DNA of 64,000 nt from Noviherbaspirillum saxi (GTDB lineage Bacteria > Pseudomonadota > Gammaproteobacteria > Burkholderiales > Burkholderiaceae_D). The notes beneath the pieces were generated by a model. It did not search any database, was not told the origin of the DNA, and saw only the letters and a program-made list of their open reading frames with translations. Location: NCBI RefSeq assembly GCF_003591035.1, contig NZ_QYUO01000003.1, forward strand, positions 62,001 through 126,000. Direction: 5' to 3'. Of the stretch, positions 1,539-60,334 are shown piece after piece. Positions within the stretch are counted from its first letter, which is position 1; the number at the start of each line of letters is the position of its first letter. Position numbers and translations under genes: made by a program.

Positions 1539-1557
1539 AACTGACATAACGTCAGTT
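1539..1557. promoter_or_regulatory. 19-bp regulon operator, site 1
   Basis: The sequence AACTGACATAACGTCAGTT has perfect 7-bp inverted arms (AACTGAC/GTCAGTT) around 5 bp. It is the best match to a motif repeated about twelve times in this window. It lies 70 bp upstream of the fused acyl-CoA dehydrogenase start and 155 bp upstream of the divergent SDR. A TetR-family repressor is the likely binder (inference). Confidence 0.75.
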
Positions 1558-1626
1558 TTATTGTATCGGCCATTTGGAAAGCTGTCGAATGAATTTACAT
1601 GCGGCATTGCGTCAAACCAAAAGCAT

Positions 1627-1645
1627 AACTAATGCTTTATCAGTT
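1627..1645. promoter_or_regulatory. 19-bp regulon operator, site 2, with adjoining extended -10
   Basis: The sequence AACTAATGCTTTATCAGTT matches the repeat with one mismatch between the arms. Four bases further on the + strand comes TGATATTCT (about 1648-1656), which fits an extended -10 element. The operator would then cover the -35 region of the promoter for the SDR operon starting at 1712. A nearly identical arrangement is found at 15840-15858. Confidence 0.65.
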
Positions 1646-1711
1646 TTGTGATATTCTACGTTTTCCGAATTCGCCGCATCGTTCGCGGCTCCGACAAGTC
1701 AGGAGAATTGC

Positions 1712-2614
1712 ATGGCAAGGTTTGCAGAAGATAAAGTCGTCATCATTACCGGATCGGGGAGCGGCATCGGGCGCGAATTCGCGCTTGCCTTTGGCAAGGC
1801 CGGCGCCAAGGTCGTGGTCAATGATCTGGCGCGCGACGCTGAAGGCCGTTCCGCCGCAGGCAAAGTAGCGGAAGAGATTGCCGCGGCCGGCGGCACTGCG
1901 ATTGCCAATACCGACAGCGTGTCGGAGTGGGATTCCGCGCACCGCATCATGCAGACGGCGATCGACGCCTACGGGCGCATCGATTGCGTGGTCAATAACG
2001 CGGGTATCCTGCGCGACCGCTTCTTTTTCAACATGAGCCTGGATGAATGGAAAGCGGTGATCGATGTTCACCTGAACGGCTCCTTTTATATTTCACGCGC
2101 CGCCGCTCCCTACTTCAAGAGCCAGGCTTCCGGCAGCTATATCCATCTGACATCGACGAGCGGCCTGATCGGCAATACCGGGCAGGCGAACTATGCGGCC
2201 GCCAAGCTCGGACTCGTGGGCCTGTCGAAGAGCATTGCACTGGACATGGCCCGTTACAACGTGCGTTCCAACTGCATCGCGCCGTTCGCATGGACGCCGA
2301 TGACCGCGTCGGTCCCGACCGATACGCCGGAAGCGGCTGAACGCATGGAAAAGCTCAAGCGCATGGAACCGCGCCTGATCGCGCCGCTCGCGGTATTCCT
2401 TGGCAGCGATGCCGGCGCAAGCGTCTCAGGCCAAGTGTTCGGCGTGCGTGCCAATGAAATCTACCTTTACTCGCAGTCACGCGTGATCCGCTCCGTTCAC
2501 CGCAGCGAGGGCTGGACTCCGGAAAGCATCGCGGAGCATGCGATCCCGGCGATGCGCACCTATTTCTATGACAACGTGCCGTCCCCGACCCTGACCACCT
2601 GGGATCCAATCTAA
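1712..2614 (+). CDS. Short-chain dehydrogenase, probable 3-hydroxyacyl-CoA dehydrogenase
   Basis: A 300-residue SDR with the cofactor motif TGSGSGIG at residues 13-20, NNAG at 95-98, a serine near 148, and the catalytic YAAAK at 161-165. The Asp at residue 38, after the second strand, suggests NAD+. At 300 residues it is longer than FabG (~245) and resembles the dehydrogenase part of 17-beta-HSD type 4 enzymes, which oxidise 3-hydroxyacyl-CoA in beta-oxidation of bulky substrates. It has an AGGAG ribosome site at 1701. It is the first gene of an eight-gene operon to 9151 that also holds a MaoC hydratase and a CoA ligase, which fits a beta-oxidation role. The exact substrate is not known. Confidence 0.85.
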   Translation: MARFAEDKVVIITGSGSGIGREFALAFGKAGAKVVVNDLARDAEGRSAAGKVAEEIAAAGGTAIANTDSVSEWDSAHRIMQTAIDAYGRIDCVVNNAGILRDRFFFNMSLDEWKAVIDVHLNGSFYISRAAAPYFKSQASGSYIHLTSTSGLIGNTGQANYAAAKLGLVGLSKSIALDMARYNVRSNCIAPFAWTPMTASVPTDTPEAAERMEKLKRMEPRLIAPLAVFLGSDAGASVSGQVFGVRANEIYLYSQSRVIRSVHRSEGWTPESIAEHAIPAMRTYFYDNVPSPTLTTWDPI

Positions 2615-2702
2615 GCATCGGCGGCACCGTAATCATGGAAGACACGCCGCTGCGCCTGGTCAAGGGCAAGGATTACAAGAAAGCATAGAAACGGAAGCCG
2701 CC

Positions 2703-15839: not shown

Positions 15840-15858
15840 AACTAACATGTATTCAGTT
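15840..15858. promoter_or_regulatory. 19-bp regulon operator, site 3, with extended -10
   Basis: The sequence AACTAACATGTATTCAGTT belongs to the repeat family, with arms less perfect than site 1. It is followed by TGCTACTCT, an extended -10-like element on the + strand. The same operator-plus-promoter block precedes the operon at 1712. It lies between the divergent thiolase-like gene (start 15790) and the hydrolase (start 15972). Confidence 0.6.
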
Positions 15859-18033: not shown

Positions 18034-18096
18034 TGCGCCTTTCCGACCGGCGTGCATGAACTAGCCGGGTCGTTTTTAAAAAATGGAGAAGACAAG

Positions 18097-19125
18097 ATGA
18101 TTCATGAAAGCCTCAGCATGAAGCTGACCGGCTGGTTCCAGGTAGGCTGGTCGGCGGATTTGTCCGTGGGTACCGTCAAACCGCTGCGTTATTTCGGCGA
18201 AGACCTTGTCGCCTTCCGCTGCAAGGCCGGCAAGGTACGCATCATGGAAGCGCATTGCAAGCACTTGGGCGCGCATCTTGGCCATGGCGGTTGTGTTGTG
18301 GATCAAGGCATCCAGTGTCCGTTTCACGGCTGGGTATGGGGTACCGACGGCCGCAATGCGCTGATTCCGTACAAGGAAGGATCGATCAACCGCACGCGCC
18401 AATTGAAAGTCTGGCATGTCGCGGAAAAGAACGATTGCATCTATCTGTGGCACGACGCAAAGGGCCGAAACCCGTTGTGGGAAGTCCCGGATGCCTTCAA
18501 GGATTTCGGCGCGCATGTGAAACGGTTTCACTTCGAGCCCCCGGGTCCCGAGGCGCGCAGCCATTGGCCGAACCTTCACCTGCACCCGCAGATGCTGATC
18601 GAGAATATTGTCGACCCTCACCACTTCAAATACACCCATTTGACGAAGGATTCGCCCAAGGTACTGTCCGAAGAGATCGGCAAATGGGAATGGCGCGCCA
18701 CGGTCGGCTTCGGCCGCCGTTGGGCGCAGGGACTCATGCCGCCGACAGAGACGCTCAACACCATCATCATCCACTGGTCTGGCCCCGGCATCAGCATCAA
18801 TGTCGAACATACGCCGGCCGGCATGCGCGTGGTCTGCATCAACTCGACACCGGTCGACGACGACTCCGCGGAAATTTTTGCAACCTACTGGATCAATCGC
18901 ACCGAGGACGATGCGCAATCCTATGCGGCCCGGCTCGACGAAGCGAAGATCGCTCTTCCGCAAGACGTCAACATCTGGCACAACCAGCGCTTCAATCCGA
19001 ATCCGGCGCTCACCGCGGAAGAGTGGCCGGGCTGGCGCAAAGCGCGCACGTGGACGAAGCGCTTCAATCCCGATGCGACGCAGGAAGATGAAAACTGGTT
19101 GCCGGAACAACCGGCCAATACTTGA
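18097..19125 (+). CDS. Rieske non-heme iron oxygenase, KshA/DAF-36 type
   Basis: A 342-residue oxygenase. The Rieske [2Fe-2S] ligands are Cys54, His56, Cys74 and His77 (CKHLGAHLG...CPFHGW). The mononuclear iron site is seen as N170-x2-D173-x2-H176-x4-H181 (NIVDPHHFKYTH). The segment WHDAKGRNPLWEVP is typical of the KshA group, whose best-known members hydroxylate 3-ketosteroids at C-9; other members act on sterols. It therefore probably hydroxylates a polycyclic substrate. The start is the ATG after GGAGAAGACAAG. No dedicated ferredoxin-type reductase follows it; the reductase at 35099 could serve, but this is a guess. Confidence 0.88.
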   Translation: MIHESLSMKLTGWFQVGWSADLSVGTVKPLRYFGEDLVAFRCKAGKVRIMEAHCKHLGAHLGHGGCVVDQGIQCPFHGWVWGTDGRNALIPYKEGSINRTRQLKVWHVAEKNDCIYLWHDAKGRNPLWEVPDAFKDFGAHVKRFHFEPPGPEARSHWPNLHLHPQMLIENIVDPHHFKYTHLTKDSPKVLSEEIGKWEWRATVGFGRRWAQGLMPPTETLNTIIIHWSGPGISINVEHTPAGMRVVCINSTPVDDDSAEIFATYWINRTEDDAQSYAARLDEAKIALPQDVNIWHNQRFNPNPALTAEEWPGWRKARTWTKRFNPDATQEDENWLPEQPANT

Positions 19126-23375: not shown

Positions 23376-23477
23376 GTGATCGTCTCCTTGAAGATGGTTG
23401 GCACGACAGTGCTGTCGGGCTACGGGTTTGCGCAGGCAGCGAGTCAAACGCGTCTCGCTTTGACAGCAATGTGACAG

Positions 23478-23497
23478 ATTGACAGTTTGCTGTCAAT
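23478..23497. promoter_or_regulatory. Putative MarR operator
   Basis: ATTGACAG-TTTG-CTGTCAAT is a perfect 8-bp inverted repeat with a 4-bp spacer. It lies between the acyl-CoA dehydrogenase (-, start 23375) and the SDR (+, start 23558). A diverged copy lies directly upstream of the MarR gene at 24999-25018. Confidence 0.7.
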
Positions 23498-24464: not shown

Positions 24465-24980
24465 CTACTTCTTCGCTTTGTTCATGCGCGGATGCAGGTC
24501 GGCGAACTCGGCGTCGACCGCTTCGGGATGCTCGAGGTATTGCCTTATGCGGCGTAGCACCGCAACCGCATGTTCGACTTCGTCCCTGCCGATGGCAGCA
24601 CCGATACGGTCGGTCCATTGACCGCGCGAGTCGGCATTGAGCGCATGCGCGGCCAGACCCGCTTCCGTGGCGACCAGCTGCTTTGCGCGCTTATGATGCG
24701 GATTGTCTTCGAAACTGACCAGCCCTCTCTCAGCCAGTTCATTGGCGGTGCGCTGCACCGATTGGCGTGTCAGGCCGAGGCTGCGTGCGATCTTCGCCAC
24801 CGTGGGAGGCTCGGCGGCGCGCACCACCGCGGTCAGCAGCAATCCTTCCGAATGGCTCTGGAGCCCGCGCGTCTCGTTCAATTCACGCGATGCGGAAAGA
24901 ATGCGCCCGCGCAGGCGCAGCACCTCGTCGACCAGCACCTCGACAGCGCCCCCTGCCTCTGTATGAAACTTTTTTTGCAT
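24465..24980 (-). CDS. MarR-family transcriptional regulator
   Basis: A 171-residue winged-helix protein. The core RAAEPPTVAKIARSLGLTRQSVQRT is the helix-turn-helix, followed by a wing (LVSFEDNPHHKRAKQLV). It is a little longer than the usual ~145 residues because of its N-terminal helix. Dimers of such proteins bind palindromes and release them on ligand binding. A palindrome of the TGACAG-N4-TTGTCA type lies 19-38 bp before the start, suggesting autoregulation, and a stronger copy lies at 23478. No clear ribosome site precedes the ATG. Confidence 0.88.
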   Translation of the reverse strand: MQKKFHTEAGGAVEVLVDEVLRLRGRILSASRELNETRGLQSHSEGLLLTAVVRAAEPPTVAKIARSLGLTRQSVQRTANELAERGLVSFEDNPHHKRAKQLVATEAGLAAHALNADSRGQWTDRIGAAIGRDEVEHAVAVLRRIRQYLEHPEAVDAEFADLHPRMNKAKK

Positions 24981-37111: not shown

Positions 37112-37915
37112 TCAATACTGTTGCCAGTAGAGCTCCATCCCTGCAGGCGGCACTTTCTTTGCCGGGTCGTAGAACGGGCTGAGTGCACCGAGCATGCGCG
37201 GCAGCGAAGCCTTTGCAACCTTCTTGGCAATGACTTTCTGACGCTCGATCGAGCGCTGCACTTCTTCCGGGCTCATCGACTTGCGATCCTGATTCATCAG
37301 AAATTCTTCGAGTCGCGCGGTATGCGTGCGGATGTGCTTGACCGCGTAGAACAGGCCATATACACGATACAGCCAGCTGAAAAAGCCGCGGCCGCAAATC
37401 GCCTGATAGACCTGGAACGCCACCTCGCGATGTTCGAACTCTTCGGCAAGATGCCATTTCCACAAGTCCACGGCATCCTGGTCGGCGCCTTCCAGCAGAT
37501 CGTCGAGGTCCTCGAAAAAGACCAGCGCCGAGGCCGAGCCCATGGCTTCGAACCCTTCGGCGTACGCCAGATTGAAGCGCAGCGACTTTTCCTTCAGGAA
37601 GCGGTCATAGTCCTCGCGGTATGGATCCTCGATCGCCTTCATGCCTTCGTAGCCCTGTGCATACAGCGCCCTGTTGAAGGCAAGGTGCTGCTTGCAATGC
37701 TGGACTTCCTGCTTGATAAAAATATCAAGATCTTCATGCAGCTTCGTGTGCTTGGGATCTAGTACCTTCTTGGCTTGCATCATGACTTTGACAAGATACG
37801 GCTCGATATGTGCAGGAACCGTCGATGCAGCGTTGTAGCGCTGCGAAAATTCGATGGAGGGAGCCCAATGAGCGCGGACCTTGGAAAAGTCCCACTTGGG
37901 AAAACGTACTTTCAT
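37112..37915 (-). CDS. PF10118/COG3687-type protein, probable di-iron carboxylate enzyme
   Basis: A 267-residue all-helical protein of the family annotated as 'metal-dependent hydrolase'. Two ExxH motifs, E70-V-Q-H73 and E159-F-E-H162, with acidic residues at 120 and 123 between them, look like a ferritin-like di-iron site. The start at 37915 follows GCAGGAGACG; the longer frame has no ribosome site. The rubredoxin/reductase pair lies 750 bp away in convergent orientation and is a natural electron donor. An oxygenase or desaturase role is inferred and is not established for this family. Confidence 0.75.
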   Translation of the reverse strand: MKVRFPKWDFSKVRAHWAPSIEFSQRYNAASTVPAHIEPYLVKVMMQAKKVLDPKHTKLHEDLDIFIKQEVQHCKQHLAFNRALYAQGYEGMKAIEDPYREDYDRFLKEKSLRFNLAYAEGFEAMGSASALVFFEDLDDLLEGADQDAVDLWKWHLAEEFEHREVAFQVYQAICGRGFFSWLYRVYGLFYAVKHIRTHTARLEEFLMNQDRKSMSPEEVQRSIERQKVIAKKVAKASLPRMLGALSPFYDPAKKVPPAGMELYWQQY

Positions 37916-38031
37916 CTTCGTCTCCTGCAAGAGCCGTCCGCGGGGAGTCGCGTTGGCATGCGAATGGATAGTCACCTGTAGATTCATCCGGCAAGCGTCG
38001 GTTCAACGCCAACATCGATAAATCTCGCAAT

Positions 38032-38050
38032 AAATGATAAATCGTTATTT
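38032..38050. promoter_or_regulatory. Possible 19-bp regulon operator, weak
   Basis: AAATGATAAATCGTTATTT has the correct length and location (117 bp before the PF10118 start) but only part of the arm consensus. It may be a low-affinity member or chance AT-rich sequence. Confidence 0.3.
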
Positions 38051-39063: not shown

Positions 39064-39082
39064 AACTGACGTTTCATCAGTT
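39064..39082. promoter_or_regulatory. 19-bp regulon operator, site 6, with -10 TATACT
   Basis: The sequence AACTGACGTTTCATCAGTT is close to consensus. TATACT at 39085-39090 follows directly on the + strand and fits a -10 element, so the operator would cover the -35 of the promoter of the TetR gene (start 39207). The same site lies 138 bp upstream of the divergent enoyl-CoA hydratase-family gene. This is the expected layout of an autoregulated repressor. Confidence 0.72.
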
Positions 39083-39206: not shown

Positions 39207-39887
39207 ATGCCGTTTTTTACCCTGACGGCGAAAGAGATGGCCAACCGTGACTCGAAGGCAGCACAGGAAAGACCGTCGCTGCGCCAGGAACAGAAGCGTC
39301 TAACCTATGAGCGCCTGCTCGCATCGGCGATCGAGGTGTTTGAAGAGACGGGATACCGGGCGGCGACGATTGCTCAAATCGCTCAGCATGCGGGTGCCGA
39401 CCGCACTACCTTCTACCTGCATTTCAAGAATAAGTCGGATGTCGCGACAGGCATCGCGCGGCGCCATACTTCAGCAACCGCCAAGCATTTTCATGCGCTT
39501 GATAACCTGTCCAATCCGAGCCTCAAGGATGTGCGCGCCTGGGTCAAGCTGATCTTCAATTACTGGACAGGGTTTTCGACCGAGCTTGAGGTACTGTGCG
39601 AAGCAATCGCAAGCGACGCCGAGTTGAGTTCCCTGACGGCCGACTACAATGCGCACCTGGCGAACATCGTGACCCGCAACAGTAGTCATGGCATGTCGGC
39701 CAAGGAGCGCCGCATCATGCGCGCAAAAGCCATGTTGCTGATTTCAACCCAGCGGGATGCAATGTTTTCGATATTGTGCCGCAAGCAAACCGCCATATCG
39801 CTTAACCACATCGTGGATGCCCTGGCCAGCCTGTGGTGGGAGTGCCTGTACCAGCACGTCTCTGCGACAGATACCAAAAAAAACTAG
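39207..39887 (+). CDS. TetR-family transcriptional regulator
   Basis: A 226-residue TetR protein. The helix-turn-helix at ~54-83 reads AATIAQIAQHAGADRTTFYLHF. The larger C-terminal domain is the ligand pocket. The start is uncertain: Met1 at 39207 has no obvious ribosome site, and Met11 at 39237 is preceded by GAAAGAG. It is preceded by an operator-like palindrome overlapping its promoter. Since that palindrome recurs in front of nearly all operons here, this protein is the best candidate for the regulon's repressor, the second TetR at 51679 being the alternative. The ligand is probably a CoA thioester, by analogy with other catabolic TetR regulators. Confidence 0.88.
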   Translation: MPFFTLTAKEMANRDSKAAQERPSLRQEQKRLTYERLLASAIEVFEETGYRAATIAQIAQHAGADRTTFYLHFKNKSDVATGIARRHTSATAKHFHALDNLSNPSLKDVRAWVKLIFNYWTGFSTELEVLCEAIASDAELSSLTADYNAHLANIVTRNSSHGMSAKERRIMRAKAMLLISTQRDAMFSILCRKQTAISLNHIVDALASLWWECLYQHVSATDTKKN

Positions 39888-39945: not shown

Positions 39946-42426
39946 CTAGCCGTTCGCCACGGAACGCGCAGGCATGCTTTCGATGGCTTCAGACGCGTCC
40001 TGAGGATCGTCCTGCTTGAGACGACTGTCCTGATCGGCTTCGGTGCGCAACAGGAAGTAGGAAAGCGCCGGAATCAGCAACAGTGCGCCGATCATGTTCC
40101 ACAGGAACATGAACGTCAGCAGGATGCCCATATCGGCCTGGAACTTGATCGGCGACCAAGCCCAGGTAATAACGCCGGCGGCCATGGTCACCCCTACAAG
40201 GCCAACGATCTTGCCGGTGAAATCCAGCGAATGCGTGTAGGCCTCGGCCAGCGTTGCGCCTCGCCGCTGCAGCGCAAGTTGAATGCTGAGCAGGTATAGC
40301 GCATAGTCGACGCCAACACCCACACCAACTGCAATCACAGGCAGCACCGCGACCTTGATGCCGATATTGAGCCACACCATCAGCGCTTCGCAAAGTATCG
40401 AAGTCAGGATCAGCGGAATGATGGCGACCACGGTCGCGCGCCAGCTGCGGAAGGTCATCAGGCAAAGCAGGATCACTGCACCGTACAGCACGAAGTGCAT
40501 GGTCCAGAAGCTCTTCTTGACCACGATGTTGGTGACCGCCTCGATGCCGGCGTTGCCGGCGGCGAGCTGGAATTCGCGATCGGGGGCATTATGTTCGGCC
40601 GCAAACGCTTCGACCTGATCGACGACGCTGGTCAGGGTGCCTGCCTTGTGGTCGCTCAGATACGCGATGATCGGAGTGACTGCGCAGGTCCGCTCGGCAA
40701 GGTCGGGACGATCGCCTTGGAAAATGTTGAACGCTTGTGCGCGATTGTTCGCGTTGCGCGACAGCGCTTGCCACTTGGGATTTCCCTCGAACATGCCGGA
40801 GGTGCCGCGCCGTATGCCGTCGGCGAGCGAAAACGTGGTTTGCACGCCGGGCACCTGGCGCAGTGCGGCGCCCAGACGGTCCGCCTCGACCAGATTGCTG
40901 TAGGAATAGCATTCACCATGCTTGGTGCGGAGCATGACGACGAACTGGTCGGTCGACAGCCCATAGTTGCCGGTGATGAAGGCTGTATCGCGGTTATAGC
41001 GGGATTCGGAACGCAGCTCCGGCGCTCCGGGGTTAAGATCGCCGATCTGTATATCCTTGCGTACCACCATTGCCATCGCTGCCAGTGCGGCGGCGATGCA
41101 GAGGACGATAATGGCGTTGCGCCGTTCGCAGAGATGAATGAGTCCGGCGCGGACCATGCGGAACGCACCGGGAACTGAAACGCTCTTATCTTCATTCTGC
41201 ACGCTGCGCCGGGCTGCCTTTTCGCTCACGCCGATATAGGACAGCAGCACTGGAATCAGGACTAGCTTGGTGAAGATCAGCACGGTGACGCCGATGCTGG
41301 TGGTAAGCGCCATTTCGCGAATCGCGGGAATGTCGATGATGACGAGGACGGCGAAACCGACGATATTGGTCAGCAGAGCGGTCAATCCCGCCATGAACAA
41401 ACGGCGAAAGGTATAGCGCGCAGCAACGTATTTATGCGTTCCGCGGCCGACGTCCTGCATGATGCCATTCATCTTTTGCGCGCCGTGCGACAAACCGATT
41501 GCGAAGATCAGGAACGGCACAAGGATGGAGTAAGGATCAAGCACATACCCCATGAGACGCAGCAGGCCGAGCAGCCAGACCACCCCCAACGTCGCCGTAA
41601 ACACCAGCAGCAGCGTGCTGCGAACGCAGCGGGTGTATAGGAACACAAGCAGTGCCGCGATTGCGACCGACAGGGCGAAATACTGCATCACGTCGTACAG
41701 GCCGTCGATCAGATCGCCGACCAGCTTGGCGAAGCCAACGATATGCACCTTGAAGCGGTCGGTTTCCATCGAGCGGACTTCGGCTTCCAGCTTGCGCGAG
41801 AATTCCGCATAATCGAGCTGGGCGCCGGTCTGCGGATCGCGTTCGACCAGCGGCACGAAGATGACAGTGGACTTCATGTTGTCGGCCACAAAGCTGCCGA
41901 CGATGCCTGCGCGTCCGATATTGATCTGTAACTGTCTGGTCGATTCAGGTCCGCCATCCCAGCGTTCCGGCATGATCGGACCGCCGCGATAGCCCTCTTC
42001 CGTGATCTCCGTCCAGCGCAGGCTGGAAGTCCACAGGCCGCGCATGAATGCGCGATCGACGCCTGGCATCAGGTAGACCTTGTCATTGATCTTCCTGAGC
42101 GTTTCCAGATACTCCTTGTCAAAGATGTCACCGCTGGTATTTTCCAGCGAAATCCTGATCGAATTGCCCATGCCGCGCAGCGACTCGCGGTTTTCCATGT
42201 AATTCTTGATGTATGGATGCGAGCTCGGAATCATCTTGTCGAAGCTCGCATTGACCGGCAGTTTGCTGGCGTGCCAGCCAAGGAACGCCGTCATTGCCAC
42301 GCAGATGAGCACCATGATGGCGCGGTGGTTGAAGATGAATCGTTCCAGCCATGACCCGCTGTTCCTGTCGAAGTTCGCAGGGTCGGTAATGACTGGCAGG
42401 TCTATTGACCGGTCCGATACTGCCAT
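39946..42426 (-). CDS. RND/MMPL-type transporter permease
   Basis: An 826-residue inner-membrane protein with two sets of transmembrane helices, each preceded by a large periplasmic loop. The first helix lies at ~36-50. Clusters of hydrophobic segments follow at ~245-315 (ALSVAIAALLVFLY..., GVVWLLGLLRLMGYVL) and ~640-800. It belongs to the hydrophobe/MMPL-like branch without the usual tripartite partners, which is known to co-occur with DUF1302/DUF1329 and YCF48-like genes. It is the last gene of the operon from 46869. It probably moves a hydrophobic substrate across the envelope; direction is unknown. Confidence 0.88.
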   Translation of the reverse strand: MAVSDRSIDLPVITDPANFDRNSGSWLERFIFNHRAIMVLICVAMTAFLGWHASKLPVNASFDKMIPSSHPYIKNYMENRESLRGMGNSIRISLENTSGDIFDKEYLETLRKINDKVYLMPGVDRAFMRGLWTSSLRWTEITEEGYRGGPIMPERWDGGPESTRQLQINIGRAGIVGSFVADNMKSTVIFVPLVERDPQTGAQLDYAEFSRKLEAEVRSMETDRFKVHIVGFAKLVGDLIDGLYDVMQYFALSVAIAALLVFLYTRCVRSTLLLVFTATLGVVWLLGLLRLMGYVLDPYSILVPFLIFAIGLSHGAQKMNGIMQDVGRGTHKYVAARYTFRRLFMAGLTALLTNIVGFAVLVIIDIPAIREMALTTSIGVTVLIFTKLVLIPVLLSYIGVSEKAARRSVQNEDKSVSVPGAFRMVRAGLIHLCERRNAIIVLCIAAALAAMAMVVRKDIQIGDLNPGAPELRSESRYNRDTAFITGNYGLSTDQFVVMLRTKHGECYSYSNLVEADRLGAALRQVPGVQTTFSLADGIRRGTSGMFEGNPKWQALSRNANNRAQAFNIFQGDRPDLAERTCAVTPIIAYLSDHKAGTLTSVVDQVEAFAAEHNAPDREFQLAAGNAGIEAVTNIVVKKSFWTMHFVLYGAVILLCLMTFRSWRATVVAIIPLILTSILCEALMVWLNIGIKVAVLPVIAVGVGVGVDYALYLLSIQLALQRRGATLAEAYTHSLDFTGKIVGLVGVTMAAGVITWAWSPIKFQADMGILLTFMFLWNMIGALLLIPALSYFLLRTEADQDSRLKQDDPQDASEAIESMPARSVANG

Positions 42427-42467
42427 GAATGTGCTCCGTATAGATTGATGCTGGGTACGTCAGGCCG

Positions 42468-43526
42468 CTATTTGAGCGTGACCTGTTGCACCCCGGTGAG
42501 ACCAACGACCACCGCCTTGTTGCGGCTTGCCTGCACGACGCCGGACAGCAGCGTCGGGCGCGGAACGCGGAAGGTCTTGAACGCCTTGCCACCATCGTCG
42601 CTCACTAAAAGATTGCCGGACTGGCTGACCAGCAGCACCTTGCCACCTCCCGCAGTGGCGGCACTAGTGAGCGTCGATATCACGCCGGTATCCAGTTTTT
42701 CCCAGGATTTTCCGGCGTCTGCCGAACGATAGGCGGTACCCCTCAGACCTGCTGCGATAACCATATCGCCTTCTGCCGCGAGGCTGAAAAAGCTGCCGTT
42801 ATAGCCGGTCTGGCTCGGCACAAAACGCTTCTTGTCATGATCCAGGCGGAAAACGATGCCGCGCTCGGACGCGACAAACACGTTGCGCCCGCTGACGCGG
42901 ATGGCGTTGAAGTGCAGCAGCGCGTCGTAATCCACCTGCTCGATGCGCGAGGTCCATGTCTTGCCGCCATCCGACGTGGACAACAGCGTACCGAAGGAAC
43001 CGCAGACGTAGCCGTTCTTCTCGTCTTCGAACCAGACATCGAGCAACGCCTGCTCGGGCCCGTTTTCATAGTTGAGCTGCATTTCCTGCAGCAAGCGTGT
43101 TGCGTTGGCGTCGCCCCTGTCGGCAAGCTTTTTGAAATGCTCGACCAGCTGCTTGCCGGCCTGGCGCCCGTCGAACTGCCGGGCCCATGTCTTACCGCCG
43201 TCCTGCGTATGCAGGACCACGCCGTCATGGCCGACTGTCCAGCCATGGCTGGCGCTGGGAAAATGCACTGCCAGAAGATCGGACGATACCGGGGACTGGC
43301 GCTGCGTCCAGGTTTCGCCGGCGTCATCCGAAGTGATGATCAGGCCACGGATGCCGACTGCGACAAGGCGGCTGCCTGCTTGAGTGACTGCGGAAAGCTG
43401 GGTGTTTGTCGTGAGGCGCGTAACCGGCGCCGGCACATCGAGAGGATCCTTGAATGCGTCGCCGGCAGCGCAGGCATTCCCGATACAAAGGGCGAAAGCG
43501 AACGCCGGTATGACTAACTGACGCAA
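42468..43526 (-). CDS. YCF48-like secreted beta-propeller protein
   Basis: A 352-residue protein with a signal peptide cleaved near residue 21 (GNACAAG). Asp-box (BNR/YCF48) repeats recur about five times: SDDAGETW, TQDGGKTW, STSDGGKTW, SADAGKSW and SDDGGKAF. It should form a periplasmic propeller that assists assembly or binding, as proposed for YCF48 homologues. The start codon is TTG at 43526, eight bases after AAGGAG; no in-frame ATG is nearby. It lies between the DUF1329 and RND genes and is part of the envelope cassette. Confidence 0.85.
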   Translation of the reverse strand: MRQLVIPAFAFALCIGNACAAGDAFKDPLDVPAPVTRLTTNTQLSAVTQAGSRLVAVGIRGLIITSDDAGETWTQRQSPVSSDLLAVHFPSASHGWTVGHDGVVLHTQDGGKTWARQFDGRQAGKQLVEHFKKLADRGDANATRLLQEMQLNYENGPEQALLDVWFEDEKNGYVCGSFGTLLSTSDGGKTWTSRIEQVDYDALLHFNAIRVSGRNVFVASERGIVFRLDHDKKRFVPSQTGYNGSFFSLAAEGDMVIAAGLRGTAYRSADAGKSWEKLDTGVISTLTSAATAGGGKVLLVSQSGNLLVSDDGGKAFKTFRVPRPTLLSGVVQASRNKAVVVGLTGVQQVTLK

Positions 43527-43697
43527 TTCCGATTCTCCTTGGTGGACAAAGGCAGTGGGAGCACACCTTGTCCTATGTAATTTTTATAACAAATAAGCAA
43601 ATGAGTCGTTGCATGTTTGTCTCCTACACGACTACTCTACCGCCAAACCATGCAATGCGATACTTGACCGGATCGCTCCGTGTAACTTTTGAAATAT

Positions 43698-43730
43698 TGC
43701 GGAAAGCCGCTTGCGCCGCCTTCCGCATGA
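43698..43730 (-). terminator. Possible hairpin after the DUF1329 gene
   Basis: Read on the minus strand, TGCGGAAGGCGG and the later CGGCTTTCCGCA form an imperfect stem within the 210-bp gap after the DUF1329 stop. It could reduce readthrough into the YCF48-like gene, or stabilise the upstream mRNA end. No other feature is seen in this gap. Confidence 0.35.
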
Positions 43731-43736
43731 GGACAC

Positions 43737-45119
43737 TTAACGAACGCCGCTGCCGGCCAATGAATCTGGTGTGAAGTAGTTGGTCGCGCGCGCTGGAACC
43801 TTGAACCAACCGGTGTTCTCGGCACCTGGACCCCAAGGCTTGGACTGGTTGCCATAGATGCCGCGGTTCAGGTCATACAGCACATAGTTGCCGCCGCGTG
43901 GTCCCGGCCAGTCATACTGCTGCCACACTGCGAGATGCATCAGGTGGTGCGGTTTGCCGGCGTGATCGACGCTGTAATAGATCACCGGAATCCAGCTGTC
44001 TTCGTCGACGTAGAACACCTTCTTCTGCTGCACATGGCGTTCGCCCTGCTTCAGCGTCGCCTCAACTACCCAGGTGCGGTGCAGTTCCCAGCGATAGATA
44101 TCCGGATTCGCATGGTTCTTCTTCATCGTTTCTTCAAGACTTGCGTTCTGGAATTTGTATGCGTTGTAAGGCACATACATTTCTTTTTTGCCGATCAGTT
44201 TGAAGTCGAACTTGTCCATCTTTCCGTCGAAGCCGTTGATCTCGTCGAAAATCAGGATGCCGCCGGACGTGGTGGAAACCGTGTCGTATTTAAACTCCGG
44301 TGCAAGACGAACCCGACGCTGGCCGGGAACGTAACTCCATGCCATGGAATCTTTCAGGTCGGGGCGCAGAAACTGATAGCGCAGCTGTTTGCCACCGGCT
44401 TGCGAGGCCGGATATTTGTTCGAAGCGATCAGCGCCCAGAACGGCTTGTCTTCGGGCAGAGAAGTAAGCGTGTTATCCCAGTACGGGGTCCAGTTCTCGA
44501 TAGTCTGAAATGATGTGCGGGTATAGGTGCCCGAGGCATCCATGAGGCCAGCATCGATATGCCCAGTCATGTGTACCGGCTCGTACTTCGTGTTGGCGTT
44601 CCACATCACCTCGTAACCGGATTTCGGAATCGGAAATGGAATCTGCGCATGCGCACCGGCCAAGCCGGGTGCGCTGCCTACCAGTTTGGGATTCATCACA
44701 CGCTTGACGGTGTTCTCATAGACCCAGTCGGGGTAGCAGACCGACCGGCGTGTTGGGTACACATCGATCGCCATGGTGGAATAGCGCTTGAACAACTCTT
44801 TTGTGCCTTCGTCAAGCTTGTCGGCATACTGGTTGTAATTGGCTTGCGTGATTCGGTACAGCGGCTTGTCGCTGGCAAACGGATCGACGAAAGGCGTACC
44901 GCCTGCGCTGCCTCTCGTCGGATTGTAGCCGGCCGGTGTCTTGCACAGGCCGCCGTCCCATGCAGGGATCGTACTATCCTTGTTGCCGGCCTTTTCGGCC
45001 CCGATCGGCGTGAGGGTCGTGCCCAGCTGCTTTGCTTCTTCCGGGGTTGGAGCGGCGTACACATGGCCGGCCATCAGGGCGCTTGCAGCGATGACCATGA
45101 AATGCTTTGCGTGATACAT
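43737..45119 (-). CDS. DUF1329 secreted protein
   Basis: A 460-residue protein with a signal peptide cleaved near residue 22 (HVYAAPTP). The N-terminal pattern LGTTLTPIGAEKAGNKDSTIPAWDGG is the family's conserved start. DUF1329 proteins have a LolB-like fold prediction and are found with DUF1302 proteins in lipid/steroid-type degradation clusters. It is probably periplasmic or outer-membrane associated and handles a hydrophobic ligand in uptake. It has a GTAGGAGAC ribosome site and lies 73 bp after the DUF1302 gene. Confidence 0.88.
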   Translation of the reverse strand: MYHAKHFMVIAASALMAGHVYAAPTPEEAKQLGTTLTPIGAEKAGNKDSTIPAWDGGLCKTPAGYNPTRGSAGGTPFVDPFASDKPLYRITQANYNQYADKLDEGTKELFKRYSTMAIDVYPTRRSVCYPDWVYENTVKRVMNPKLVGSAPGLAGAHAQIPFPIPKSGYEVMWNANTKYEPVHMTGHIDAGLMDASGTYTRTSFQTIENWTPYWDNTLTSLPEDKPFWALIASNKYPASQAGGKQLRYQFLRPDLKDSMAWSYVPGQRRVRLAPEFKYDTVSTTSGGILIFDEINGFDGKMDKFDFKLIGKKEMYVPYNAYKFQNASLEETMKKNHANPDIYRWELHRTWVVEATLKQGERHVQQKKVFYVDEDSWIPVIYYSVDHAGKPHHLMHLAVWQQYDWPGPRGGNYVLYDLNRGIYGNQSKPWGPGAENTGWFKVPARATNYFTPDSLAGSGVR

Positions 45120-45192
45120 GGACTGTCTCCTACTTGTCTAACGTAAGGACGGGCGAAACTGCCGCCCGCTGTAATCGATTATTGCAACTTTT

Positions 45193-46869
45193 TTAGAAAG
45201 TTGTCTTGAAAGTGAACGACACCCAGCCGTGGTCGTTCTGCACGGCGTTACCGTTGGTGGTCGTGGCAACGCCGGCTGCATTGGTATTGTGTTGAGCGCG
45301 TGCGTCGACATAGCGCAGCGCAAAGTCGTAACGCGAATACAGTGTACCGGCGATGCCGATTGACCAGGCGACAGCGCCTTCATTGCCGCCGCCGAGCGCC
45401 GAGCCGTTACCCTTGATCTGATAGGCCAGCGTTGTCGGCATCGAGATGTCCCACCCCGGGAAAGCCTGCGGCCAGGACGGCGTGAAGCTGATGTTCATGC
45501 CCCAGGCATCCTTGGTCGAACAGCCGTCGACCTTGCCGCGTCCCGCCGGGCAGGCATAGCCGATCGCATTGAAGCGCTGCGCATTGCGGGTTACCGACAA
45601 CAGCCGGCTATAGTTGAGCTCGGCGTTGAGCGAACCGCCGCGCCACAGTGGCGTTTCAGGCAAAAGATAAATTGCATTGGCCAGTGCGTGGAAGGTATTG
45701 CCACGCGCACCTTCGATTTCTTCATACGTCGGATCGATGCGATTGGCCGGCAGCACCGATATGGTGGAGTTCAATGCCGTATTGCGGCGATAAGAAATTT
45801 CGGTACCGACGCTCAGGCTGCTCAGGTTCTTCGACAAGCTCAGGCCATACAACTCGGTGTCCCGTGCGAAGGCAAGACGGATGGCCGACGGCGCAGCGAA
45901 CGGCGCGACGGGCAGTGCCCTCAGCTGGGTAACACCCCAAGGCAGCTTCTCATCAAACTTGCGATAGTAGAAACCGGCGGTGCCGTTCAGCCATTCCGGG
46001 CTCCAGCGCAGGTTGACGCCGAAGTCGCCGCTATTGCGTGGACGGATATCGCCGCCGTTCGGAATGACGATCGGCGTAGTCGTCGCGAAATCGGAGCGCG
46101 TCGCGTCGCCAGTTCCGAAGTAAGTGCCGCCGGGGACCAGACGATATGGATTCCATTCGAACGCATAATGCGCGCCGATAGAGACCTCGTTGCTCAGCTG
46201 CGCCTGCGCGGAGACTTGCTTCTGCGGCAGGAAGGTTTCCTTGGCTTCTACACCTGGACTCGTCGCGGCCTTGATGGTATCGACCGGCCCCTGACTATAG
46301 GCGATGCTGTTCCCAAGCGAGAACAAGGACTCGCCCCAGTAAACATTGTGTTGACCCAGTTTGACATTGAGCGTGGTTTCGCCGAGGTTGAACCCGCCAA
46401 AAATGAAGGCGTCCAGGATTTCGCCGGAAGGACCGACGATGTAACGCTTGGTGTAATCGTTGTATTGACCGTTGCGGTAGTTGCTCGCTGCGGGAAGCGC
46501 AGGATTGGTCAGAGAATTGTTGCCATATGCACCGTCAGCCCATGCTGCACCGCTGACGCGAAAACCGTATTTGCCCTGATAGGTGAAGTCGAGTTCCGAC
46601 AGAAGGTCGACGCGATTGGTCACCATCTCGCCGCGCTTAAAGCGACCTTCCGTCTCGTCAAATCCGGGATTGTTATAGAACGCCGGATTACGGCCTTCCG
46701 CGCGCCATCCGCCGTTGTAGCGAACAGTGTTATCCCAACGCATCTCGATATCCGGGTTCCCGGTATTGATCGTATCGGCATGGACATGTCCGCCCATGGC
46801 CAAACATGCCAGTGCAATGGAAGCAGCGATCTTCGTCGGCACCATCCCGGTTTCGATTTTCTTACTCAT
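45193..46869 (-). CDS. DUF1302 outer-membrane beta-barrel protein
   Basis: A 558-residue protein with a signal peptide ending near residue 31 (HVHADT). The mature N-terminus (IEMRWDNTVRYNGGWR) is the DUF1302 start. Alternating hydrophobic strands run to a C-terminal Phe (FTFKTTF), the OmpA/BAM signature of outer-membrane proteins. It is probably a channel for hydrophobic compounds. It has an AAAGGAG ribosome site. It is the first gene of the envelope cassette, with the operator at 46963 in its promoter, so uptake is probably induced together with degradation. Confidence 0.88.
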   Translation of the reverse strand: MSKKIETGMVPTKIAASIALACLAMGGHVHADTINTGNPDIEMRWDNTVRYNGGWRAEGRNPAFYNNPGFDETEGRFKRGEMVTNRVDLLSELDFTYQGKYGFRVSGAAWADGAYGNNSLTNPALPAASNYRNGQYNDYTKRYIVGPSGEILDAFIFGGFNLGETTLNVKLGQHNVYWGESLFSLGNSIAYSQGPVDTIKAATSPGVEAKETFLPQKQVSAQAQLSNEVSIGAHYAFEWNPYRLVPGGTYFGTGDATRSDFATTTPIVIPNGGDIRPRNSGDFGVNLRWSPEWLNGTAGFYYRKFDEKLPWGVTQLRALPVAPFAAPSAIRLAFARDTELYGLSLSKNLSSLSVGTEISYRRNTALNSTISVLPANRIDPTYEEIEGARGNTFHALANAIYLLPETPLWRGGSLNAELNYSRLLSVTRNAQRFNAIGYACPAGRGKVDGCSTKDAWGMNISFTPSWPQAFPGWDISMPTTLAYQIKGNGSALGGGNEGAVAWSIGIAGTLYSRYDFALRYVDARAQHNTNAAGVATTTNGNAVQNDHGWVSFTFKTTF

Positions 46870-47225
46870 TCTCCGTCAACTCCTTTTTTATGGTTGTAAA
46901 GCGCATTCACTGCTTTGTCCTGCTGCGTCGCCTTTTTAAAGGCCCCCGTTACTCACCCCTATTACTGACATATCGTCAGTTTTTAATAGTAGGCCACAGA
47001 TAGACTTTTGCGTCAACAGGAACGGTGCAATATTTTTTCGCTGACTCGCGTCGACAAAACTCAAATTGAACGCGTCGCAGACGACGAGAACGTCCTGCGC
47101 ATGCCAGCAGAGAGAAAAGGAAAGGAAAGGCGCGCGTTCGAGCCGAGCGATGCCCTTGTCGGAAGGAAGTACTTGCGGTCTGGTGGCGCAAACGCCGTTT
47201 GGTTCAGGCTTGCTGCATGCCCGGA
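46870..47225. other. 356-bp gap between the DUF1302 gene and the small membrane protein gene
   Basis: It holds the promoter and operator (46963-46981) of the envelope cassette. Short open frames on the + strand have no ribosome site or family resemblance. Nothing else is evident. Confidence 0.6.
46963..46981. promoter_or_regulatory. 19-bp regulon operator, site 7
   Basis: The sequence TACTGACATATCGTCAGTT is consensus except the first base. It lies 94 bp upstream of the DUF1302 gene (minus strand) and should control the whole uptake cassette. Confidence 0.7.
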
Positions 47226-47588: not shown

Positions 47589-47938
47589 GATCGTCTCCTC
47601 GCGGACTGACAACGTTTCCACATTGGCACCCTGAGTGGTCTCTCACTTCAGAATGAAGCTTCGCGACTCTTTTCATGAAGAAGAATAATCAATCAACACG
47701 TGTGGTGTCAACTTCCATTTGTTGTCTTAATCTGGAACTACTTCAACGAAATGAGATTCATCAAATCAAAATTTCACATAGGAAATGTTATTGACGCCCG
47801 AAGGCGTCGGACTGCGGCCCACGATGGCGATGCACGTGGAGCGCCACCCATGAAAACCGCTTGCCCGAAGACCAACGATCTTCGATAATCCAATAACTGA
47901 CATTTCATCTGTTATTGGATTTTTAGAAGGATCGATCA
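47589..47938. other. 350-bp gap upstream of the GldA-like gene
   Basis: It contains the strong nested palindrome at 47888-47920, including the regulon operator, and an ACACGTGT palindrome at 47696-47703. No convincing open frame is present. Confidence 0.5.
47888..47920. promoter_or_regulatory. Regulon operator (site 8) nested in a long palindrome
   Basis: The 19-bp operator AACTGACATTTCATCTGTT (47895-47913) is nested in a longer perfect 10-bp inverted repeat, ATCCAATAAC/GTTATTGGAT (47888-47897 and 47911-47920). It lies 19 bp before the GldA-like start, so it probably overlaps the promoter or 5' leader. Confidence 0.65.
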
Positions 47939-51474: not shown

Positions 51475-51493
51475 AACTGACAGTTTAACAGTT
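51475..51493. promoter_or_regulatory. 19-bp regulon operator, site 9
   Basis: AACTGACAGTTTAACAGTT lies between the MFS_3 gene (80 bp upstream of its start) and the second TetR gene (186 bp upstream). On the minus strand it is followed by TATTAA, a possible -10 for the transporter. Confidence 0.68.
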
Positions 51494-51678: not shown

Positions 51679-52461
51679 ATGAACACTGAAGTGACAAAGA
51701 ACAAACAGGGCCAGACCCTAGGCCGTAAAGGGCAGGAAACGCGTGCCAAATTGATGGAAGCCGCAAGGCAGCTTCTGGACACGCACTCGCCGGTTGAACT
51801 TACCGCCGTTTCGATTGCGGCCGAAGCAGGCACATCGCCGGCCAGTTTTTACATGTATTTCGACGATACCAAGGACATCCTGTTTGCGCTGAGCGAGGTT
51901 GCCGGTGAGGATATGGCGGCGATTCATGCGATTTTCGACCAGGCCTGGACCAGCGACGACATCGAAGAACACGCGCGCAAGGTCATCGACGCGCTGAACG
52001 AAGTCTGGGCCAGACACCGTCAGGTCTTGCGCTTTCGCAACATGGAAGCCGACCGCGGCGATCCGCGCTTCGAGGAGTTGCGGATGAACACCTATGTGCC
52101 GTTCATTGAACGTTTTGCCCAGCGTATCCTGGCCATCAGTCCACCGAGTGCCACGCGCAAGCGCGCGGACGTGTATTCCGAAGCAACCATCCTGCATGCG
52201 GCAATGGAACGGCTTGCCGCTACCGAGCCGTCGGTGATGGAAAAAGGCCTGGGGCTGAAGCGTATTACCAATAACCTGGCTCGAGTGGTGAAAATGGTCG
52301 TACTGGGCGGCCAGGCGGTCGCAAAGGTTGAAGCCACTGCGCCAGCGACCAAGGCGGCTGCCGTGCAAACGAGGAACGAAGTTGCGCCAGGCGTCGTCAA
52401 GACCAAGCCGCGTTCGCGTGTTGAGCGGACCGGTACGACAAAAACCGCGAAAGCCGCCTGA
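51679..52461 (+). CDS. TetR-family regulator with Ala/Lys-rich tail
   Basis: A 260-residue TetR protein. The helix-turn-helix at ~48-72 reads LTAVSIAAEAGTSPASFYMYF. After the ligand domain comes a low-complexity C-terminal tail (~residues 215-260) rich in Ala, Lys, Arg and Thr (AKVEATAPATKAAAV..., KTKPRSR), which is unusual for TetR proteins and resembles tails of nucleoid-binding proteins. It has its own operator-bearing gap, so it could be the regulon repressor or a transporter-specific regulator. A strong terminator follows at 52493. Confidence 0.85.
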   Translation: MNTEVTKNKQGQTLGRKGQETRAKLMEAARQLLDTHSPVELTAVSIAAEAGTSPASFYMYFDDTKDILFALSEVAGEDMAAIHAIFDQAWTSDDIEEHARKVIDALNEVWARHRQVLRFRNMEADRGDPRFEELRMNTYVPFIERFAQRILAISPPSATRKRADVYSEATILHAAMERLAATEPSVMEKGLGLKRITNNLARVVKMVVLGGQAVAKVEATAPATKAAAVQTRNEVAPGVVKTKPRSRVERTGTTKTAKAA

Positions 52462-57286: not shown

Positions 57287-57296
57287 TGCGAATCCA

Positions 57297-57787: not shown

Positions 57788-57806
57788 AACTGTTAAACCG
57801 TCAGTT
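57788..57806. promoter_or_regulatory. 19-bp regulon operator, site 10
   Basis: The sequence AACTGTTAAACCGTCAGTT has one perfect and one partly diverged arm. It lies 84 bp upstream of the DUF35 gene and should control the four-dehydrogenase operon. Confidence 0.65.
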
Positions 57807-58653: not shown

Positions 58654-58676
58654 TCCATATCTCCTTCTGTACGACG

Positions 58677-59456
58677 TCAGTGCAAGCTCGAACGCGGAGC
58701 CTGCTTTGCGCGGAATGCGCGCAGCGACTCCTGCGTATCATCGGAACCCAGCAGACGTGTTGCGGCATCCATCATCATCGTGCGCAAGGTATCTTCATCC
58801 TGGTCAGCGGCGCAACGCGCGATACGCAGGCTTTCGCCGACCGCTGCAGGCGGATTTGCAGCGATGCTATCGGCCAGCCTGAGCGCGCACGCAACCACAT
58901 CATCGTCGCCCACGACATGGTTGACCATGCCGTGCGCATGCGCGCGCTGCGCCGAGATCGGCAGGCCCGTGGTCAGCATTTCGATGGCAAGCGCCTTGGG
59001 CAGACTGCGCACGGCGCGGTACACGCCGCCCGCGGCGGCGATCAACCCATGCCTGACTTCGGGCAAACCAAATGCTGCGCCCTGACCGGCGACAATCATG
59101 TCACAGGCCAGTGCGAGTTCCATGCCTCCGCCAAGGGCGTTGCCGCGCACTGCAGCAATCCAGGGCTTGTTGCGGTGCACGAACATCAGGCCACCCATAC
59201 CGGCATCGCCAATCGCAATTTCATGCCCGCGTCCAGCCGCAATGTCTTCAAGATCCGCCCCGGCGGAAAAGCACTTGCCTCCCGCCCCCGTCAGCACGAC
59301 GACCCGAACCGAATCGTCCTGCTCGGCACGTTGCACGATATCGGCCAATGCCTGCGAAGCCGCGATGTTGATGGCATTGCGCTTTTCGGGACGATTGAGG
59401 ATGACAACAAGGATATGCTTGTCGACACGCTGAGTCAGGACCAATTCGTCTTGCAT
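58677..59456 (-). CDS. Enoyl-CoA hydratase
   Basis: A 259-residue crotonase. FSAGADLE (63-70) and RGNALGGGMEL (104-114) are the oxyanion loops. Both canonical catalytic Glu are present, Glu133 (LPEVRHG) and Glu159 (AIEMLTTG), making this the most conventional hydratase in the window. It should add water to a 2-enoyl-CoA. It is preceded by the SDR at 59458 and followed after 23 bp by the SDR at 57841, which fits a hydration/oxidation sequence. Confidence 0.88.
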   Translation of the reverse strand: MQDELVLTQRVDKHILVVILNRPEKRNAINIAASQALADIVQRAEQDDSVRVVVLTGAGGKCFSAGADLEDIAAGRGHEIAIGDAGMGGLMFVHRNKPWIAAVRGNALGGGMELALACDMIVAGQGAAFGLPEVRHGLIAAAGGVYRAVRSLPKALAIEMLTTGLPISAQRAHAHGMVNHVVGDDDVVACALRLADSIAANPPAAVGESLRIARCAADQDEDTLRTMMMDAATRLLGSDDTQESLRAFRAKQAPRSSLH

Positions 59457-59457
59457 G

Positions 59458-60252
59458 TCATCCCTTGGACATTACGTTCGACAAGCCTACCAGCGGCACC
59501 ATGCTGGCGCCGCCGTCGACCAGCAGCGACGACCCTGTGATATAGGACGCTTCCTTGGAAGCCATGAACAGCACGGCTGCGGCAATCTCTTCCGATTCGC
59601 CGGGACGCGGCACCGGGAAATTAGCCGAGATCGCGCTCGCCTGGGCATCATTCAACTCCCCCTTCATGCGATCGGAGGCGATCATGCCCGGCTCGATGAC
59701 ATTGACCAGGATATTGAGCGGTCCGAACTCCACCGCGAGACCGCGTGCAAAGGCATTCATATATGCCTTGGTAGCTGCATACGGAATCAGTCCGGGAATA
59801 AAGGTGCGGTTGGCCGATCCGGAGGAAATGTAGATCAGACGACCTTTGCCCTCGGCGCGGGAAAGATGCGGTGCTGCATCTTTAGCGATCCAGAACAGCG
59901 AGTGGATATTGCTCTTGATCAAATAGTCATAAGCTTCATCTTCCATCTCCGTCACGCGGCCATGTGCATTGTCGGCCGCGCAATGGACGACCACATCGAG
60001 TTGCCCGTGCGCCTGGACCGCATCGTCGAACATTGCCTTGACTGCGGCGCGGTCGGATATATCGCCGTTGACCAGACTCGCCTTGCCGCCGCGCTCGCGG
60101 ATTTGCTGCACTGCGGCTTCACCATAACTTAGCGTTCTGGCGGAAATGACGACAGTGGCCCCTTCAGACGCAAAAGCGTCGGCAATCGCCTTACCCATTC
60201 CACGTCCCGCACCGGTAACCAGCACAACTTTGCCGGCATATCGACCTTGCAT
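59458..60252 (-). CDS. Short-chain dehydrogenase/reductase
   Basis: A 264-residue SDR. VTGAGRGMG is the cofactor motif, the NNAG position reads HCAA, and the catalytic pair is YAATK. SSGSANRTF precedes it. The Arg in ISARTL after the second strand suggests NADP(H). It has an AAGGAGACAG ribosome site. It is the first gene of the three-gene operon, divergent from the large flavin reductase at 60476 across the operator at 60316. It probably oxidises a 3-hydroxyacyl-CoA or a related alcohol. Confidence 0.85.
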   Translation of the reverse strand: MQGRYAGKVVLVTGAGRGMGKAIADAFASEGATVVISARTLSYGEAAVQQIRERGGKASLVNGDISDRAAVKAMFDDAVQAHGQLDVVVHCAADNAHGRVTEMEDEAYDYLIKSNIHSLFWIAKDAAPHLSRAEGKGRLIYISSGSANRTFIPGLIPYAATKAYMNAFARGLAVEFGPLNILVNVIEPGMIASDRMKGELNDAQASAISANFPVPRPGESEEIAAAVLFMASKEASYITGSSLLVDGGASMVPLVGLSNVMSKG

Positions 60253-60315
60253 ATCTGTCTCCTTGATTTTGACTCAGGCGCGCTTTTTAGTTGACGGGCG
60301 CACCGATTTATATAA

Positions 60316-60334
60316 AACTGACACTTCGTCATTT
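60316..60334. promoter_or_regulatory. 19-bp regulon operator, site 11
   Basis: AACTGACACTTCGTCATTT lies in the 223-bp divergent gap between the SDR (-, start 60252) and the flavin reductase (+, start 60476). On the minus strand it is followed by TTATATAAA, which contains a plausible -10 (TATATA or TATAAA). Confidence 0.65.

Follow-up and report, generated by a model that had tools for sequence, protein, structure and literature searches.

Does a single transcription factor control the catabolic genes of this locus, and if so, which one? The question is raised by a palindrome, AACTGAC-N5-GTCAGTT, that recurs between genes in a 64,000-nucleotide stretch of the Noviherbaspirillum saxi contig NZ_QYUO01000003.1 (positions 62,001 to 126,000), referred to here as the window. 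The genome (G000; 6.5 Mb) consists of three contigs, and the window corresponds to C3:62001-126000, C3 being the contig that contains it. Our analysis showed that palindromes of this kind head every gene run of a catabolic island of ∼104 kb and 86 genes, and that they are conserved across genera. The protein that binds them is probably the TetR-family regulator encoded at 51679..52461 (+), designated TetR 51679. Unless a contig or locus is named, coordinates are those of the window.

Operator sites in the window

When up to three mismatches were allowed, AACTGAC-N5-GTCAGTT matched the window at 12 positions, compared with a mean of 1.30 (maximum 5) in 100 shuffles. These matches include all 11 strong copies listed by an earlier, sequence-only reading of the window, each exactly at its given coordinate and with 0-3 mismatches; the remaining one, at 23469, is additional. 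The weak copy reported at 38032 exceeds three mismatches, yet it scored 21.3 bits with a weight matrix (trained on 17 sites, all from G000) and has a 20.0-bit counterpart in genome G183, for which the identity Herminiimonas arsenitoxidans is suggested.

All sites described in this paragraph have counterparts in G183. Two of them, at 1539..1557 (29.2 bits) and 1627..1645 (24.4 bits; found by both pattern and matrix), share the gap between a gene for a fused acyl-CoA dehydrogenase (C3:61256-63469, in large part outside the window) and a short-chain dehydrogenase/reductase (SDR) gene at 1712. The gap between the genes of an SCP2-type thiolase (14639-15790, −) and a hydrolase (15921, +) contains a 19.3-bit site (15840..15858), and a weaker site of 16.0 bits (23469..23487; 19.0 bits in G183) separates an acyl-CoA dehydrogenase gene (22092-23447, −) from an SDR gene (23558, +). 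Sites of 24.6 bits (26397..26415) and 25.2 bits (33404..33422) lie, respectively, between a thiolase gene (25066-26385, −; with a MarR gene downstream) and a CoA ligase gene (26540, +), and between a pair of acyl-CoA dehydrogenase genes (31011-33351, −) and an MFS carrier gene (33586, +). The weak site recovered by the matrix scan (38032..38050) is upstream of a PF10118 gene (37112-37987, −), while a 27.9-bit site (39064..39082; 29.1 bits in G183) is located between the genes of an enoyl-CoA hydratase (38132-38926, −) and a second TetR (39207, +). Further sites were found upstream of an envelope cassette (39946-46869, −; site 46963..46981, 25.4 bits), of an iron-containing alcohol dehydrogenase-type gene (47939, +) and a DUF2889-like gene (site 47895..47913, 25.0 bits), and of genes for ChsH2-like and acyl-CoA dehydrogenase proteins (52557-57767, −; site 57788..57806, 24.6 bits). 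The gap between an SDR gene (59458-60252, −) and a gene for an old yellow enzyme (OYE)-type reductase (60476, +) holds another 24.6-bit site (60316..60334).

The site at 51475..51493 (25.8 bits; pattern and matrix) is assigned to the gap between an MFS gene (49809, −) and the TetR 51679 gene. It bears on the earlier statement that the motif occurs only in promoter gaps, which holds in the window with the proviso that, as called, the MFS open reading frame (ORF; 49809-51548) includes this site. The call runs from the first GTG and gives 579 aa, compared with 533 aa (46 aa shorter) for the G183 orthologue, and the Pfam match begins only at residue 60.

Extent and specificity of the island

The sequence-only reading confined the regulon to positions 1539..60334, which proved too small an extent. 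The matrix identified 24 positions of at least 15 bits within C3:42-145.7 kb, all intergenic after trimming of ORF starts by up to 90 nt, and these span C3:42206-145184, passing both ends of the window. Since the window covers C3:62001-126000, the island extends ∼20 kb beyond each of its ends. One further position of at least 15 bits (C3:40502, 15.2 bits) is within an ORF, outside the island.

Directons (same-strand gene runs) were used as a stand-in for operons. Sites were present at the heads of all 24 directons in C3:42-146 kb, compared with none of the six outside, and this count was unaffected by dropping or keeping six ORF calls judged spurious. Six further internal promoters in the island also carry sites.

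Genome totals alone are not telling, because a control search with the reversed pattern yielded similar counts: 8 places for the motif versus 5 for the control with up to one mismatch, and 191 versus 214 with up to three. The significance of the motif rests in its concentration in the island, which makes up 1.6% of the genome and contains seven of the eight places with up to one mismatch and 17 of the 32 with up to two. A similar frequency elsewhere had been named in advance as evidence against the regulon; total counts are indeed not enriched over the control, whereas placement is concentrated in the island. Eight of the 15 off-island places with up to two mismatches were examined: seven lie within open frames of at least 233 aa (L014 is in no long frame), and seven score below 15 bits (L013 reaches 18.2 bits) with a matrix that was itself trained on island sites. 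Open frames alone cannot separate the two sets, as six of the 17 island sites also fall within some open frame of at least 245 aa. Placement at directon heads is a stronger test of specificity than the frame or score comparison.

Five of the 15 off-island places belong to the region C3:436930-471950, in which five near-motif copies stand ∼8.7 kb apart, suggesting a five-fold repeat of ∼8.7 kb.

Conservation of the sites in other genera

Genomes for comparison were reached via TetR 51679. They comprised three of the same family, namely G183, Herbaspirillum autotrophicum (G619) and Massilia putida (G748; plasmid NZ_CP019037.1), and a remoter cluster on pAB510b of Azospirillum B510. With the G000-trained matrix, sites of at least 18 bits numbered 24 in the G183 island (mean of 200 simulations, 0.405), 17 in that of Herbaspirillum (0.12), 11 in that of Massilia (0.005) and one in Azospirillum (0.0), for which no simulated site occurred at 22 bits. 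In whole genomes, places with up to two mismatches totalled 26, 33 and 20 in G183, Herbaspirillum and Massilia, compared with 13, 12 and 5 in the controls, and 10 of the 11 distinct G183 places with up to one mismatch are in its island (a duplicated contig end being counted once). Sites head 17 of 19 island directons in G183, 17 of 18 in Herbaspirillum and 11 of 21 in Massilia; outside the islands, the respective counts are 0 of 15, 0 of 26-28 and 0 of 9.

The duplicated end in G183 is that of its contig C1, in which the final 21.5 kb are 99.9% identical to the first 21.5 kb; this is a circular overlap that was left untrimmed.

Sites in orthologous gaps were compared between G000 and G183 as 19 pairs, without gaps in the alignment. 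The spacer was found to be 71% identical and the 40-bp flanks 39% (their inner 10 bp, 52%), while the 90% identity of the arms is inflated, because both members of each pair were picked as motif matches, a constraint that affects the spacer less. Five of the 24 island sites of at least 15 bits remained unpaired (C3:42206, 46361, 57663, 113475 and 139249).

The sites also travel with genes whose neighbours differ. The folE gene is placed behind the fused dehydrogenase gene in G000, whereas in Herbaspirillum (23.4 bits) and Massilia (18.4 bits) a hydrolase gene lies across the gap, which contains sites directly upstream of folE. A 26.1-bit site accompanies the chemoreceptor gene in both G000 and Massilia. 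The proposal of one large regulon is thus strongly supported, also by genomes outside the training of the matrix (G183, Herbaspirillum and Massilia). Since the sites head the operons of the island and other genera keep them, one regulator probably switches the whole island.

The refined operator

Alignment of 81 sites of at least 16 bits from four genomes gave AWAACTGAY RNWNY RTCAGTTWT, with the consensus AWAACTGAYRNWNYRTCAGTTWT. The outer two steps on each side carry ∼1 bit each, partly reflecting the AT-richness of the gaps. As these steps were not used for site selection and are still informative, the operator is ∼23 bp long rather than 19 bp. Paired sites, 34-156 bp apart, are present in all four islands.

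TetR 51679 as the candidate binder

TetR 51679 matches TetR_N and TetR_C_38 in Pfam (PF00440, TetR_N, 29.4 bits, cut-off 24; PF19352, 35.2 bits, cut-off 23.9). Its structure model (mean predicted local distance difference test score, pLDDT, 88.2) has an all-helical TetR fold, with EthR as the top PDB matches (E 3.4e-6, probability 1.00, TM-score by target length up to 0.84). The related islands have in common two of the recognised regulators, TetR 51679 and a MarR-family protein. The TetR 51679 orthologues are 75% identical in G183, 72% in Herbaspirillum, 68% in Massilia and 52% in Azospirillum, and Massilia has two copies of this type (68% and 60%). The 60% copy (NZ_CP019037.1:65262-66083) is preceded at 48 bp by a 26.1-bit site, and the gap concerned can serve no other gene. 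A site of at least 15 bits lies within 400 bp upstream of the TetR 51679 gene in G000, in Herbaspirillum and at both Massilia copies (one at 364 bp). In Azospirillum, a 24.0-bit site precedes an enoyl-CoA hydratase gene, the best hit of which in G000 is the 38132 gene (65%), the bearer of the 27.9-bit site, the pairing being different in a reciprocal-hit table made with other gene calls.

The N-terminal arm of TetR 51679 is strongly conserved: N8, G11, Q12, G15, K17 and G18 are invariant among 59 homologues, and the motif NKQGQxLGRKG is near-invariant in this type. According to a title cited in PMC5812520, SimR binds the minor groove through a flexible N-terminal extension. By analogy, the AT-rich outer steps of the operator would suit minor-groove contact by the arm of TetR 51679.

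Several observations weigh against TetR 51679, or against the regulon as drawn. Its gene has no site of at least 15 bits upstream in G183 or Azospirillum, and the upstream site is shared or distant in G000 and Herbaspirillum. Azospirillum has one strong site only, its next hits (16.4 and 16.2 bits) being inside genes, and in Massilia sites head only 11 of the 21 directons, with some gene calls on the wrong strand relative to its annotation. No clear promoter geometry points to repression: -10-like hexamers showed no peak at the spacing expected were the arm sequence CTGACA a -35 box, and their weak enrichment inside the sites and at the site edge is confounded by AT content. The inflated arm identity noted above belongs here too, as does the conservation of the MarR protein, which equals that of TetR 51679 (74% in G183, 67% in Herbaspirillum and 73% in Massilia). 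With these points taken into account, TetR 51679 is still the probable binder.

Alternative explanations

The main rival is this MarR-family protein, encoded at 24465..24980 (−) and conserved in three relatives. If it were the binder, the regulon would be unchanged and TetR 51679 would have some other or local role. The MarR gene follows a thiolase gene that has a site at its head, and in Herbaspirillum the gap between the MarR gene and an MFS gene contains a 25.9-bit site, 104 bp upstream of the former. A long palindrome whose edges are AT-rich suits a MarR protein, too. However, the Azospirillum stretch of 165-290 kb, in which TetR 51679 and a strong site are both present, gave no convincing MarR (best tblastn E 0.077), and the Massilia MarR gene has no site of at least 15 bits directly upstream (9.1 bits). 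Moreover, 39 relatives were found for the MarR, compared with 273 for TetR 51679, in searches that differed in query and threshold. We regard the MarR as a rather unlikely binder.

Binding by another protein, encoded elsewhere or by an island gene such as the AsnC-type gene beside the electron transfer flavoprotein (ETF) operon, appears improbable. This gene adjoins paired sites in G000 and G183, and the regulator comparison covered only the compared stretches; yet it has no reciprocal best hit in Herbaspirillum or Massilia, and a regulator encoded within the island is favoured by the fact that the sites are confined to it. AsnC/Lrp-type genes were located at C3:145264-145602 in G000, beside the sites at the ETF operon, and at L068:12701-13183 and 13196-13672 in G183, next to a P450 gene.

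The sequence-only reading had attributed binding to one of two TetR proteins; TetR 51679 fits this role better, with the MarR, whose gene that reading did not name, as its rival; the second protein, encoded at 39207..39887 (+), was found only in this genome. TetR 39207 is transcribed divergently at site 39064, whose 27.9-bit palindrome lies in its promoter gap. It was nevertheless rejected and is a most unlikely binder, because the regulon persists in relatives that lack it: three of the four compared islands keep the regulon, and G183 retains the counterpart of site 39064 at 29.1 bits. A search of 195 family genomes, a set taken to include G183, gave no match at E ≤ 1e-20 in the 194 genomes other than G000, and the G183, Herbaspirillum, Massilia and Azospirillum regions contained no reciprocal best hit. 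Its relatives amount to two distant hits in the scan of genome contigs and to plasmid proteins that are all <60% identical.

That the palindromes are the non-regulatory trace of a dispersed repeat or mobile element, as their many similar copies within one stretch might suggest, is scarcely credible and was rejected by the flank comparison of G000 with G183, since the element alone is conserved between orthologous gaps and its flanks are not, the copies vary yet remain symmetric and are placed at directon heads only, and the sites follow folE and the chemoreceptor gene despite their differing neighbours.

Genes of the island and the probable substrate

The gene content of the island was derived from Pfam and PDB matches of its proteins. 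It includes five acyl-CoA ligases, ten acyl-CoA dehydrogenases among the proteins scanned (one fused, several without the middle domain), two thiolases with an SCP2-type C-terminal domain, a ChsH2-like protein, a ferredoxin reductase, two OYE-type reductases, three amidohydrolases, ETF and ETF-quinone oxidoreductase (ETF-QO), a chemoreceptor and MFS carriers. A Rieske oxygenase (18052..19125, +) is KshA-like (KshA_C, 91.5 bits; best PDB match KshA, E 1.4e-22), while its score with the NCBIfam model for 4beta-methylsterol monooxygenase is only 36.5 bits against a cut-off of 600. Neither a 3-ketosteroid dehydrogenase nor an extradiol ring-cleavage enzyme was found in a Pfam scan confined to the island and covering all but a few of its genes. 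The envelope cassette (39946..46869, −) encodes MMPL/RND (PF03176), YCF48-like, DUF1329 (PF07044) and DUF1302 (PF06980) proteins.

The G183 island adds a glucose-methanol-choline (GMC) oxidoreductase and a P450 (L068:11200-12408; closest to P450cam, E 1.1e-81) that is divergent from a 20.8-bit site; no P450 was found in the scanned island stretch of G000. The gene set probably serves CoA-dependent breakdown of a polycyclic isoprenoid-type compound, steroid- or terpenoid-like, the two being indistinguishable by gene content.

Two genes of obscure role had been tied to the regulon by the sequence-only reading, and their membership is supported, because the runs that contain them carry head sites. 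One encodes a PF10118 predicted metal-dependent hydrolase (37112..37987, −). The other, at 49012, is DUF2889-like: it is itself Pfam-negative, and DUF2889 is the annotation of its reciprocal best hit in Azospirillum (34%).

Some further features of the island were observed. A gene for an APH-type phosphotransferase (kinase) adjoins an acyl-CoA dehydrogenase gene at 21009-23447, an arrangement known from 4-hydroxyacyl-CoA breakdown (ACAD10/11, LvaA type). Cofactor genes, for GTP cyclohydrolase I (C3:60658-61224) and pantoate ligase (C3:54186-55025), are placed inside the catabolic island of G000. Two window ORFs used as queries, 21384-22466 (+) and 52545-53765 (+), were Pfam-negative and are probably wrong-strand ORFs.

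Comparison with known systems

KstR and KstR2 of actinobacteria are likewise TetR-type regulators of large gene sets for ring and side-chain catabolism, KstR controlling nearly 100 genes according to PMC8228715, and the island shares with these steroid systems KshA-, ChsH2-, Ltp2- and ChsE-like proteins. The host is proteobacterial, however, and, as had been proposed, the operator is neither that of KstR (TNNAACGTGTTNNA) nor that of KstR2 (AAGCAAGNNCTTGCTT), as both are quoted in PMC8228715; both differ from the 81-site consensus. TetR 51679 matched 22 PDB sequences (E ≤ 0.01), none of which is a KstR by its listed name, and no NCBIfam model came near its cut-off with this protein. By analogy, the island regulon would work like that of KstR, but it differed from KstR in the tests run. 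The kind of system, a KstR-like mega-regulon, is already known, and the present case is unusually complete.

Among proteobacteria, EdcR of Caenibius tardaugens is an estrogen-dependent TetR repressor with palindromic sites at steroid-cluster promoters; in PMC8700777, its operator is given as TnnCnnTACnAnTnGTAnnGnnA, which differs from AWAACTGAYRNWNYRTCAGTTWT, and four promoters of one cluster are named. The PDB structures closest in fold to the TetR 51679 model are those of EthR-type regulators, at ∼20% identity. AmeABCD of Castellaniella defragrans, a system of monoterpene metabolism, unites DUF1302 outer-membrane, DUF1329 periplasmic and RND proteins, and monoterpene export is proposed for it (PMC6394551). 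The cassette at 39946-46869 resembles it in domain content (DUF1302, DUF1329 and RND/MMPL together) and includes a YCF48-like protein. No description of the present operator was found in titles and abstracts of the open-access literature searched.

Proposed mechanism

We propose that a single local transcription factor, dedicated to this one ∼104-kb island, controls it through the palindrome as its operator. A dimer of TetR 51679 would read the two AACTGAY arms through its helix-turn-helix, and its conserved N-terminal arm may contact the AT-rich outer steps. TetR 51679 would most likely repress the operons and, for roughly half of its copies, its own gene. Repression would end when its C-terminal domain binds an intermediate of the pathway, probably an acyl-CoA or the free polycyclic acid. 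The derepressed island would take up, CoA-activate and beta-oxidise a bulky steroid- or terpenoid-like compound.

It is possible, if somewhat less likely than not, that an undescribed TetR subfamily (NKQGQxLGRKG arm, TetR_C_38) forms a single-operator mega-regulon moving as a unit, which covers every promoter of a ∼70-105-kb island, including chemotaxis, envelope transport, ETF and cofactor genes, and which serves an undescribed polycyclic isoprenoid pathway occurring in single species of several genera and remodelled in Azospirillum.

The island is a clear case of a single operator retained across genera at promoters throughout a catabolic island. About 86 genes, several of them without assigned function (DUF2889-like, PF10118, DUF1302, DUF1329 and the three amidohydrolases), would be linked to a single signal, and identifying one inducer would therefore indicate which substrate they all serve. 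Searches for the 23-bp operator together with the TetR subfamily could locate the pathway in further genomes, and the operator/TetR pair could be made into a sensor that detects a steroid- or terpenoid-like compound.

Distribution of TetR 51679

In wider samples of 369 class, 398 phylum and 399 order genomes, in which only the best few first-look candidates per genome were scored and misses are possible, only G000 itself matched. TetR 51679 was found in none of eight genomes of one further genus, and no relative was present in viral contigs. Homologues of it were also listed for Pandoraea and Pseudomonas. Within the family, it was detected in 4 of 392 genomes; by genus, the counts were 1 of 15 in its own, 1 of 13 in that of G183 and 1 of 34 in that of Herbaspirillum autotrophicum. 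This sparse distribution is compatible with horizontal spread of the island as a unit.

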